Origin: Jeotgalibacillus aurantiacus
GTDB taxonomy: Bacteria > Bacillota > Bacilli > Bacillales > Jeotgalibacillaceae
Direction: 5' to 3'
Length of the DNA stretch: 64,000 bases
Assembly: GCF_020595125.1 (NCBI RefSeq)
Contig: NZ_JACNMS010000001.1
Span: forward strand, 806,001-870,000
In this document: one piece after another, positions 4,298 to 45,621 of the stretch
How the letters are laid out: each line of letters opens with the position of its first letter
How positions within the stretch are numbered: the stretch's first letter is position 1
The notes under the pieces: model-generated
Database searches by the model: none
Seen by the model: the letters and a program-made list of their open reading frames with translations, nothing else
What the model was told of the DNA's origin: nothing
Position numbers and translations under genes: made by a program

Positions 4298-4535
4298 AAG
4301 ATCATTGAAGTTCACTTCTTTTACTGTATTTTTAAAAGGAGAGAAATGAGTGTGTAAATAAACATGAGATTTTTATAGCTGGAAAGCACTTAGAAAAAAG
4401 ATTATTTTCAACGAATAAAAAGTTAAATATTACAATTAAATTCACTTAATTATGCATATTAGCTGATTTATTCTGTTGCGCAACCCATTTTCAGGTGATA
4501 TAGTGATCGTGCATAGAAAAAGTTCATACCGTTAT

Positions 4536-4627
4536 CTGCACTGGGGGTGCTTATGTAGCTGAGATGAGAGCAATGGCTCCGATCCCTTATGACTCGATCA
4601 GGATAATACCTGCGTGAGGAAGTGTAG
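4536..4627 (+). promoter_or_regulatory. TPP (THI-box) riboswitch upstream of ykoF
   Basis: The conserved THI-box blocks are present in order: CACTGGGGGTGC, GCTGAGATGAGAG, GATCCCTTATGACTCGATC, then GGATAATACCTGCGTGAGGAAGTG. The closing P1 helix pairs CTGCACT-type bases (4536-4542) with AGTGTAG (4621-4627). Thiamine pyrophosphate binding is expected to favour the terminator that starts 30 bases downstream and so switch off ykoFEDC. The 238 bp between the tetR stop and this element is AT-rich and holds no gene. Confidence 0.96.
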
Positions 4628-4657
4628 TGACTTCTCTTCGTATACAGCAGGAGCAGT

Positions 4658-7977: not shown

Positions 7978-8103
7978 TTCGAAAGATTTCGGCCGTTGTT
8001 CGCAGGATATCGATGCTGGTTCGCAAGATATTCAAGTTGGTTCGTAGAATGATAGATGACGTTCGCAAAATATCAGCACCCTTTCGCAGGATTGTGCCAT
8101 TTG
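7978..8103 (+). repeat. array A: six degenerate 21-bp units, core TTCGCARAAT
   Basis: Six units begin at 7978, 7999, 8020, 8041, 8062 and 8083, each exactly 21 bp. Positions 1-10 follow TTCGCARAAT with few changes and the remaining 11 are variable. The last unit reads TTCGCAGGATTGTGCCATTT. Sister arrays lie at 24204 and 45442. The minus strand stays open through this array and yields a spurious ILRT-repeat peptide of 94 residues. Confidence 0.9.
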
Positions 8104-8118
8104 GACTATCGCAGAGTT

Positions 8119-8162
8119 GGGGTCTGTCCTGAAGTCTACCGTAGACTTCATGGACAGACCCC
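8119..8162. repeat. long perfect-ended hairpin, GGGGTCTGTCC arms
   Basis: GGGGTCTGTCC (8119-8129) pairs with GGACAGACCCC (8152-8162). Inside these, GAAGTCTAC pairs with GTAGACTTC around a minimal loop, so almost the whole 44 bases fold into one hairpin. No T run follows on the plus strand, so a simple terminator is not obvious. It may be a dispersed palindromic repeat. Confidence 0.75.
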
Positions 8163-24203: not shown

Positions 24204-24329
24204 TTCGCAGGATACCGGCCGTAGTTCGCAGAATTAGCGCCGTCTTTCGCAAAATAACGTCTAGGGTTCGCATAATTCCAGCCCACGTTCGAAAGATTTC
24301 ACCAGCGTTTCGCAAAATCGTGACATTTC
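24204..24329 (+). repeat. array B: six degenerate 21-bp units, core TTCGCARAAT
   Basis: Units begin at 24204, 24225, 24246, 24267, 24288 and 24309. Each is exactly 21 bp with the same core as arrays A and C. The last unit reads TTCGCAAAATCGTGACATTT, close to the last unit of array A. Unit 5 shares TTCGAAAGATTTC with the first unit of array A. Confidence 0.9.
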
Positions 24330-24350
24330 ACCCACCATCATCTCCTACAT

Positions 24351-27025: not shown

Positions 27026-27051
27026 GAGGCCTGGACAACCGTCCAGGCCTC
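27026..27051. terminator. strong bidirectional terminator
   Basis: GAGGCCTGGAC (27026-27036) pairs perfectly with GTCCAGGCCTC (27041-27051) around AACC, with five A before and a T-rich stretch after. The following 120 bp to the next gene hold no recognised element. Confidence 0.8.
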
Positions 27052-27174
27052 TTCCTCTAAATTTGCGGCGTTAAGGCACGCTCCACAACGTGTTCCTTTG
27101 AAAAGGATCCTTATCCGACTTACGCAAACGAGCTCATCGCATGAAGTCTACATTAAAGGAATAAAGGGATGATG

Positions 27175-45441: not shown

Positions 45442-45567
45442 TTCGCACAATATCTGCTTTCTTTCGCAAAATTTTGTCGATGGTTCGCAGAATTCACCTC
45501 GTGTTTCACACAATACTGACGTCCTTCCACAGAATCCGCACCACCTTTCACAAAATCATGCCAAATG
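45442..45567 (+). repeat. array C: six degenerate 21-bp units, core TTCGCARAAT
   Basis: Units begin at 45442, 45463, 45484, 45505, 45526 and 45547, all 21 bp. The last three have changed the core to TTCACA or TCCACA. The final unit, TTCACAAAATCATGCCAAAT, matches the last units of arrays A and B. The array lies between divergent genes, not after a stop codon. The frame that gives ILRT peptides in arrays A and B is interrupted by TGA codons here. Confidence 0.88.
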
Positions 45568-45621
45568 ACCTATCCCTCCACACGCCCGACACAATTTCCT
45601 CCTCATAAATAAAACCAGCCT

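Follow-up and report, generated by a model that had tools for sequence, protein, structure and literature searches.

The window, a 64,000-bp stretch of DNA (C1:806001-870000 of the 3.51-Mb, 19-contig genome of Jeotgalibacillus aurantiacus), carries three arrays of a 21-bp direct repeat lying between genes (Table 1). The original prediction, made from the sequence of the window, placed six units with an exact 21-bp period on the forward strand at each of the three places, and reading base by base bears out all of this. The three contexts that it described, after an operon, between convergent genes and between divergent genes, agree with the neighbouring gene calls. The ten-base core also stands, but TTCGCARRAT describes it better than the TTCGCARAAT first proposed; G or T precedes the core, and the remaining bases are weakly constrained. 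Array 1 begins with the unit TTCGAAAGAT, while array 3, the most degraded of the three, has TTCACACAAT, TCCACAGAAT and TTCACAAAAT as units 4-6. Across the window, a two-unit pattern (up to three mismatches) matches 14 times, versus 0.09 expected from shuffles. Additionally, unit 6 and the bases after it form a conserved 3' end that had been missed, so that each array makes up a single element some 135 bp long.

Table 1. Arrays and neighbouring features of the window (positions count from its first letter; C1 marks contig coordinates).
Feature	Position	Strand	Details
Array 1	7978..8103	+	Six 21-bp units; 3' of ecfT, before a phnD-like gene (both genes +)
Array 1, model match	C1:813974-814110		91.3 bits; array 1 is in the model's training set
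Array 1, conserved 3' end	8083..8109	+	Unit 6 TTCGCAGGATTGTGCCATTTG + GACTAT
Motif around GGGTCTGTCCC	~8118-8162		Palindromic in the window; adjoins array 1
Array 2	24204..24329	+	Six 21-bp units; between a convergent RluF-like gene (+) and a 544 aa gene (-)
Array 2, model match			84.5 bits; array 2 is in the model's training set
Array 2, conserved 3' end	24309..24335	+	TTCGCAAAATCGTGACATTTC + ACCCAC
Array 3	45442..45567	+	Six 21-bp units, less well preserved; flanked by divergent genes of 631 aa (-) and 330 aa (+)
Array 3, model match			72.6 bits; array 3 is in the model's training set
Array 3, conserved 3' end	45547..45573	+	TTCACAAAATCATGCCAAATG + ACCTAT
TPP riboswitch	4533-4637	+	Rfam match
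BsrF small RNA	27026-27140	-	Rfam match

Over the whole J. aurantiacus genome, the two-unit pattern matches 193 times, versus 2 for a reversed-pattern control. R1, a sequence-only covariance model trained on 41 arrays (33 from J. aurantiacus and eight from the sister species G004), finds at least 42 strong arrays (≥65 bits), most of which cover nearly the full six-unit model; because R1 scored only the best 150 of 573 first-look candidates in this genome and the best 150 of 597 in G007, a second species, its array counts are lower bounds. Among the arrays read base by base, 34 of 35 have six units at 21 bp, and unit number in Jeotgalibacillus is thus nearly constant rather than random. The exception, L072 on contig C8, has nine units, or ten if the weak first unit TTCAGGAAAT is counted, and was left out of the six-unit sets; its sister copy in G004, L079, has the same make-up and unit number. 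Both copies are without the usual 3' end. Automatic chaining had counted 7 units in L062, 8 in L068 and 10 in L072, against 6, 6 and 9 by hand; the leading units of the three carry 3-6 core mismatches and were not counted in L062 and L068. The 3' end common to the arrays reads about GTGACATTTG-ACCTAT, in which unit 6 has a conserved tail specific to it, about NGTGACAWWTG, and ACCYAT comes next. In family A of J. aurantiacus, TTC occurs in 32-34 of 34 arrays at each of units 1-6, in one array at the site before and in none at the site after.

TTC is also the signal common to the several families that are built on the same plan, namely A and G in J. aurantiacus and B, C and D in G007. A second J. 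aurantiacus family, TTYGTSAGKTT..., has about 20 copies in the loci read and keeps the usual tail; in several of its arrays the first unit is degraded and the final step is 20 bp. Most of the G007 arrays read (27 of 30) follow the pattern TTCGTAGAAWA..., with six units and a tail that equals or approaches GTGTAATTTG-ACCTAY; the other three (L176, L192 and L194) belong to a different type, TTCAGRA or TTCATGA, and L185 has one step of 20 bp. A further family, TTCGRCGTWWAAC..., with TTC at 21-bp steps, six units and a similar tail, occurs in G007 and G011. L312 of G007 has seven units, and L307, L312, L322 and L327 combine, as judged by eye, units from two families in one frame. The G007 B/D arrays carry TTC at each of units 1-6 in 27-30 of 30 cases, at the preceding site in one and at the following site in none. 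The corresponding counts (before, units 1-6, after) are 1, 22 and 0 of 22 for the G007 C and hybrid arrays and 0, 21 and 0 of 21 for G011, two sets chosen for having six TTCs without a seventh, so that only the preceding site is free. The 22 G007 'C' arrays include two B arrays; the array in L297, in which one of six TTCs is missing, was left out of these sets, one of the 22 G011 arrays (L316) was dropped as too near a contig end, and for locus L190 an adjacent array was the one read.

Within the genus, seven of 12 genomes give 31-64 R1 matches at E≤0.01 (lower bounds) and five give none. G005, with zero R1 matches, nevertheless has TTC arrays of another type (L227 and L239), whereas arrays seem to be absent from four congeners, G001, G002, G003 and G010. 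The loci read in G001, G003 and G010 are, by eye, coding repeats, and none was resolved for G002; the TTC pattern with up to two mismatches exceeds its control in these genomes as well (71 versus 31 in G010), so that they may contain other array types. Given the apparent lack of arrays in the four, the function would be dispensable for the genus as a whole. More widely, three TTCGCA at 21-bp steps (up to one mismatch) match in 37 of 299 sampled genomes of the order, with the reversed control matching in 20 of 299, and the 37 are a mixture of arrays in other dialects (G273, G100, G123, G224, G267, G299 and others) and coding or minisatellite matches. Single matches in Macrococcoides, Ligilactobacillus and three MAGs were set aside by eye as near-perfect short minisatellites. 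In other genera the arrays have 3-8 units under a loose rule, mostly five in Bacillus sp. cl95. The fixed unit number that had been claimed therefore holds within Jeotgalibacillus and fails in other genera, and a strict six has so far been seen in Jeotgalibacillus alone.

Comparison with G004 locates the constraint within the arrays. Flanking sequence pairs 26 of the 34 G004 arrays examined with a J. aurantiacus array, and exclusion of the nine-unit pair leaves 25 orthologous pairs, in each of which the two copies conform to six units with the 21-bp pitch. Specifically, TTC differs at 8 of 450 sites and T10 at 3 of 150, while spacer positions 11-20 differ at 253 of 1,250 (20%). Alignment gaps number 15 in 3,130 columns of the arrays, all of them compensated, versus 118 in 5,703 columns of the 120-bp flanks. 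Substitutions over the whole array amount to 13.2%, compared with 11.4-11.8% in the 120-bp flanks, which include gene ends. In these alignments, the constraint rests on TTC, T10 and pitch, the array bases overall being no better conserved than the flanks. The original prediction had offered selection on spacing or a copying mechanism as explanations of the fixed plan; the occurrence of TTC at units 1-6 only and the gaps between orthologues support the former, for both spacing and unit number, within the genus.

The arrays are also selectively placed with respect to genes. In J. aurantiacus, 15 of 35 arrays lie between convergent genes, 13 in the arrangement +A+, five in -A- and two between divergent genes; the corresponding numbers for 29 of the 30 G007 arrays are 10, 4, 15 and 0. 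These contexts come from automatic gene calls, in which only array 1 was reassigned manually, changing 12 +A+ and 3 divergent to 13 and 2. Compared with sampled gaps of at least 150 bp, divergent regions are avoided in J. aurantiacus (2/35, P=3e-4, array 3 of the window being one of the two cases) and in G007 (0/29, P=1e-3), and convergent regions are enriched in J. aurantiacus (P=3e-5) but not clearly in G007 (P=0.065). Next to co-directional genes, the two species prefer opposite orientations, 13 +A+ to 5 -A- in J. aurantiacus versus 4 to 15 in G007 (Fisher P=0.003). Relative to replication, hand counts give no consistent bias, with 11 minus and 8 plus on J. aurantiacus contig C1, and 19 minus and 6 plus on the right arm and 11 plus and 12 minus on the left arm of G007. 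Since contexts and orientations vary, transcription termination cannot account for the arrays, as had been argued from the three contexts in the window. There are hints that favoured intergenic sites are reused between species. L056 and its G007 counterpart L172 agree in orientation. Array 1 and L181 of G007 occupy one intergenic region with different families and opposite orientations, and the same is seen for L065 and L165.

On the scale of the chromosome, the arrays avoid the replication terminus in three species. In J. aurantiacus, the 933,824-bp contig C2, within which the GC skew flips between 280 and 390 kb, holds none of the 42 arrays among the matches listed (11.2 expected, P=2e-6), and in G009 the 985,906-bp contig C2 (flip at 260-360 kb) holds one of 50 among the matches listed, near its far end (P=4e-7); the P values are optimistic because the arrays cluster and, for G007, because the interval was chosen after the gap had been seen. 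The family-G places read likewise all lie outside J. aurantiacus C2. In G007, whose 3.52-Mb contig C1 has dnaA at position 856, all 48 R1 matches listed (E≤0.01) are confined to 0-1.32 and 2.35-3.48 Mb. The array-free 1.32-2.35 Mb contains the skew flip (1.70-1.89 Mb), and exact rows of six TTCs from all families, among the matches listed, avoid the same interval. Two rows in this gap (1,636,973 and 1,874,340; one-mismatch TTC, among the matches listed) look like Glu-rich coding repeats and were left uncounted. Speaking against a strict avoidance, weak R1 matches do occur in the zones, three in J. aurantiacus C2 (12.6-14.2 bits, E 0.08-0.27) and two in the G007 zone, at 2,267,734 (15.7 bits, E 0.035) and 1,559,563 (E 0.82). 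The terminus zone is not short of usable intergenic gaps. Per 100 kb, J. aurantiacus C2 offers 4.4 convergent and 24.4 co-directional gaps, versus 4.9 and 19.3 in the arms, and the G007 zone 4.0 and 14.0, versus 7.1 and 19.6. Regional gene turnover or expression could be a cause of the avoidance. G007 contig C2 (603 kb), perhaps a second replicon, has its own GC-skew change, no array at E≤0.01 and one weak match (E 0.35).

A similar distribution is described for the sites of Noc in Bacillus and SlmA in E. coli, which, in the available portions of PMC4331003 and PMC4726725, are underrepresented at the terminus and help to time division; like the arrays, they number tens, are spread over the chromosome and are scarce at the terminus. 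They are, on the other hand, single short palindromes (14 bp for Noc), whereas the arrays are six direct repeats. J. aurantiacus has noc itself (TIGR04285, 373 bits), and its 21 Noc boxes (ATTTCCCGGGAAAT, up to one mismatch), one of them on C2 (P=0.013), follow the same trend as the arrays and lie at other places. The arrays as Noc boxes were rejected, being direct repeats of TTCGCARRAT and not the palindrome ATTTCCCGGGAAAT. Noc boxes number 20-23 in each of the seven genomes that R1 matches, 7-9 in the four array-less ones and 12 in G005, a difference that may be due to phylogeny.

As to earlier descriptions of such repeats, the original prediction knew of no named repeat class with these features. 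This stands only in part, since the portions available of Subirana and Messeguer 2021 (PMC8161180) already describe, in Bacillus, tandem repeats whose size (20-21 and 52 nt) is constant while their sequence varies; the repeat families are species-specific, 21 bp is equated with two helix turns, and a nucleoid protein or small RNA is suggested. By what those portions state, the arrays belong with these repeats in having at least four repeats of a constant 20-21 nt, variable sequence, several families per genome and a short common signal (TTC), and they resemble them in being mostly noncoding and sporadic among species, the signal in B. weihaiensis being TCGCGG. The main text of PMC8161180, as available, makes no mention of 'terminus', 'six repeats' or Jeotgalibacillus, and the available portions of PMC6749651 and PMC8625621 make none of 'terminus'. 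The Jeotgalibacillus arrays differ in their fixed number of six units, in a 3' end common to families of different core, in the mixing of two families within a single frame, in measured purifying selection and in avoidance of the terminus. In the mostly open-access literature, the fixed six, the common 3' end, a selection test and terminus avoidance were not found in print.

Other known systems share single features with the arrays. REP, BIME and REPIN elements are dispersed, extragenic and located at gene 3' ends, as the arrays are, but the arrays are direct and not palindromic repeats; membership among REP or REPIN elements was rejected, there being no palindromic unit, no conserved fold and no cognate RAYT (G007 has arrays and is without Y1_Tnp). 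Plasmid iterons and type II par centromeres consist of direct repeats of about 20 bp, about two helical turns apart, whereas the arrays occur by the dozen on the chromosome, at gene 3' ends. CRISPR is ruled out by the degenerate 10-bp core, the 11-bp spacers and the dozens of small arrays. The Spo0A box, TTCGACA, resembles array family C alone.

We tentatively propose, giving it somewhat less than an even chance, that the arrays are helically phased DNA platforms for a putative protein acting on the scale of the chromosome, as Noc and SlmA sites do. Each array would be a cis-acting platform of double-stranded DNA that presents six sites, each made of TTC and a family-specific 6-8 bp, two helical turns apart, so that one protein or protein family could bind all six on one helix face. 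The bound protein would build a nucleoprotein complex of fixed size, which the conserved 3' end may cap or orient. Some 40-60 such platforms per genome would stand in intergenic DNA at gene 3' ends along the arms, a wide terminus zone excepted, and their likeliest role would be coupling nucleoid position, segregation or division, or some other arm-specific organisation. The data show a constant design, constraint on TTC and pitch, selective placement and, in three species, avoidance of the terminus; protein binding, six-fold occupancy and a cellular role are what we infer. The absence of a conserved RNA fold, a modelled curvature that is greatest at a pitch of 21 and the parallel trend of the Noc boxes also favour this reading. 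Counted against it are the apparent lack of arrays in four congeners, an overall conservation no better than that of the flanks, the differences in families, places and orientation between species and the palindromic boxes that Noc has of its own; no candidate for the putative binding protein emerged.

The main competitor, which we consider possible though doubtful, is a mobile or selfish element, MITE- or REPIN-like, that is copied whole as six units, with subfamilies succeeding each other and insertions tolerated only at gene 3' ends. It would suit the extragenic position of the arrays at gene 3' ends, the multiple families per genome, the sites that mostly differ between species and the eight of 34 G004 arrays without a partner (one merely through a tandem pair, and with three J. 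aurantiacus arrays outside the comparison). Copying itself is visible in the spacers of units 1-5, which over 741 pairs of J. aurantiacus arrays are on average 39% identical (sd 8%), with three outlying pairs, the tandem pair in L049 (91%) and the dispersed pairs L057/L353 (78%) and L068/L142 (76%). The homology of L068/L142 spans -5 to 125, the array alone, and that of L057/L353 spans -52 to 157, with GGGTCTG motifs on either side. The motif around GGGTCTGTCCC that adjoins array 1 also flanks L057 and L353 on both sides, and their homology reaches into it. Judged from these similarities, whole arrays have apparently been copied or converted at least twice, which lends weight to the mobile element; tandem near-copies occur in L049 and, as three copies, in L339. 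For the copying mechanism of the original prediction, the two dispersed pairs thus favour copying of whole arrays, while copying of single units finds no support. Against mobility, only the two dispersed pairs stand out among 741, and the TTC and T10 of in-place arrays are nearly constant between species, as dead copies would not be. The sole empty-site comparison (L077 versus L414, one candidate) showed neither a clean insertion nor a clean empty site, homology ending 38 bp before the array. Over the 12 genomes, the presence of Y1_Tnp/RAYT shows no correlation with arrays, none being found in G007 (48 R1 matches, a lower bound), G005 and G001 and one each in the array-less G002, G003 and G010. 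A mobile origin is in any case compatible with a platform role, the arrays having spread by some route and later been retained by selection.

The remaining readings place the function of the arrays at the level of RNA, DNA topology or local transcription, or deny them one. A transcribed array acting as a small RNA, 3'-UTR element or protein sponge is improbable; it would fit the location at gene 3' ends, and the available portions of PMC8161180 propose small RNAs and report that the 52-nt repeats of B. coagulans are transcribed. RNAalifold, however, predicts zero pairs in the 34 J. aurantiacus arrays, the 30 G007 arrays and the 41-row alignment, and mean folding z-scores are -0.15 to -1.32. 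This absence of a conserved fold and the opposite preferred orientation in J. aurantiacus and G007 both speak against a function of the sense-strand RNA. At the gathering score, Rfam 15 has no match at the window arrays, the TPP riboswitch and BsrF being its sole matches in the window and lying elsewhere. A flank stem, or pairing of CARRAT with AUUUUG, was dropped, RNA structure being absent in 34, 30 and 41 arrays. Slightly less improbable, and still unlikely, is a topology element, in which curved, gyrase-wrapped DNA would relieve supercoils at gene 3' ends. Gyrase wraps DNA of a length similar to that of an array, and BIME-2 of E. coli is comparable to the element so proposed. The 126 bp with 21-bp phasing and the convergent enrichment in J. 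aurantiacus would agree with it, as would curvature in a provisional model, which exceeds the shuffle mean in 23 of 34 J. aurantiacus and 20 of 30 G007 arrays and peaks at a pitch of 21 (shorter pitches gave shorter molecules). That curvature is modest, though, and the convergent enrichment in G007 weak; gyrase is universal, whereas the arrays occur sporadically and with a different core from species to species. Operators of an ordinary transcription regulator typically consist of direct repeats phased along one face of the helix, and array 3 of the window has divergent neighbours. This reading is nevertheless very unlikely, given that divergent intergenic regions are avoided in both species and that operators do not predict terminus avoidance. 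A functionless minisatellite arising from slippage would be tandem and periodic, as these repeats are, but is scarcely credible in view of the fixed unit number, the mostly unrelated spacers, the conserved TTC and the distinct 3' end, and the conservation data contradict it.

Returning to the chromosome-arm platforms, a further and rather unlikely proposal is that the arrays constitute a second, Noc-independent arm-marking system. Here, fixed six-site platforms, multiplied by whole-array copying and kept off the terminus, would be read by a rapidly diversifying putative protein family that recognises TTC every two turns, and would signal unsegregated chromosome. The repeat class described by 2021 had no function, and the six units, the selection on TTC, the common 3' end and the avoidance of the terminus provide a testable lead to one. 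If confirmed, the platforms would be a new kind of bacterial chromosome-position mark beside the sites of Noc, SlmA, MatP and ParB.

J. aurantiacus additionally contains an array type without the common 3' end, TTCTRYACACTT... at 21 bp, in L350 (C8:74300-75543), L351 (C5:1-1600) and L352 (C1:236000-236900). The cassettes that they form are some 160-195 bp long, each with CCCGGCGAAGCTCGGG or a close variant after it, and lie mostly at contig ends.
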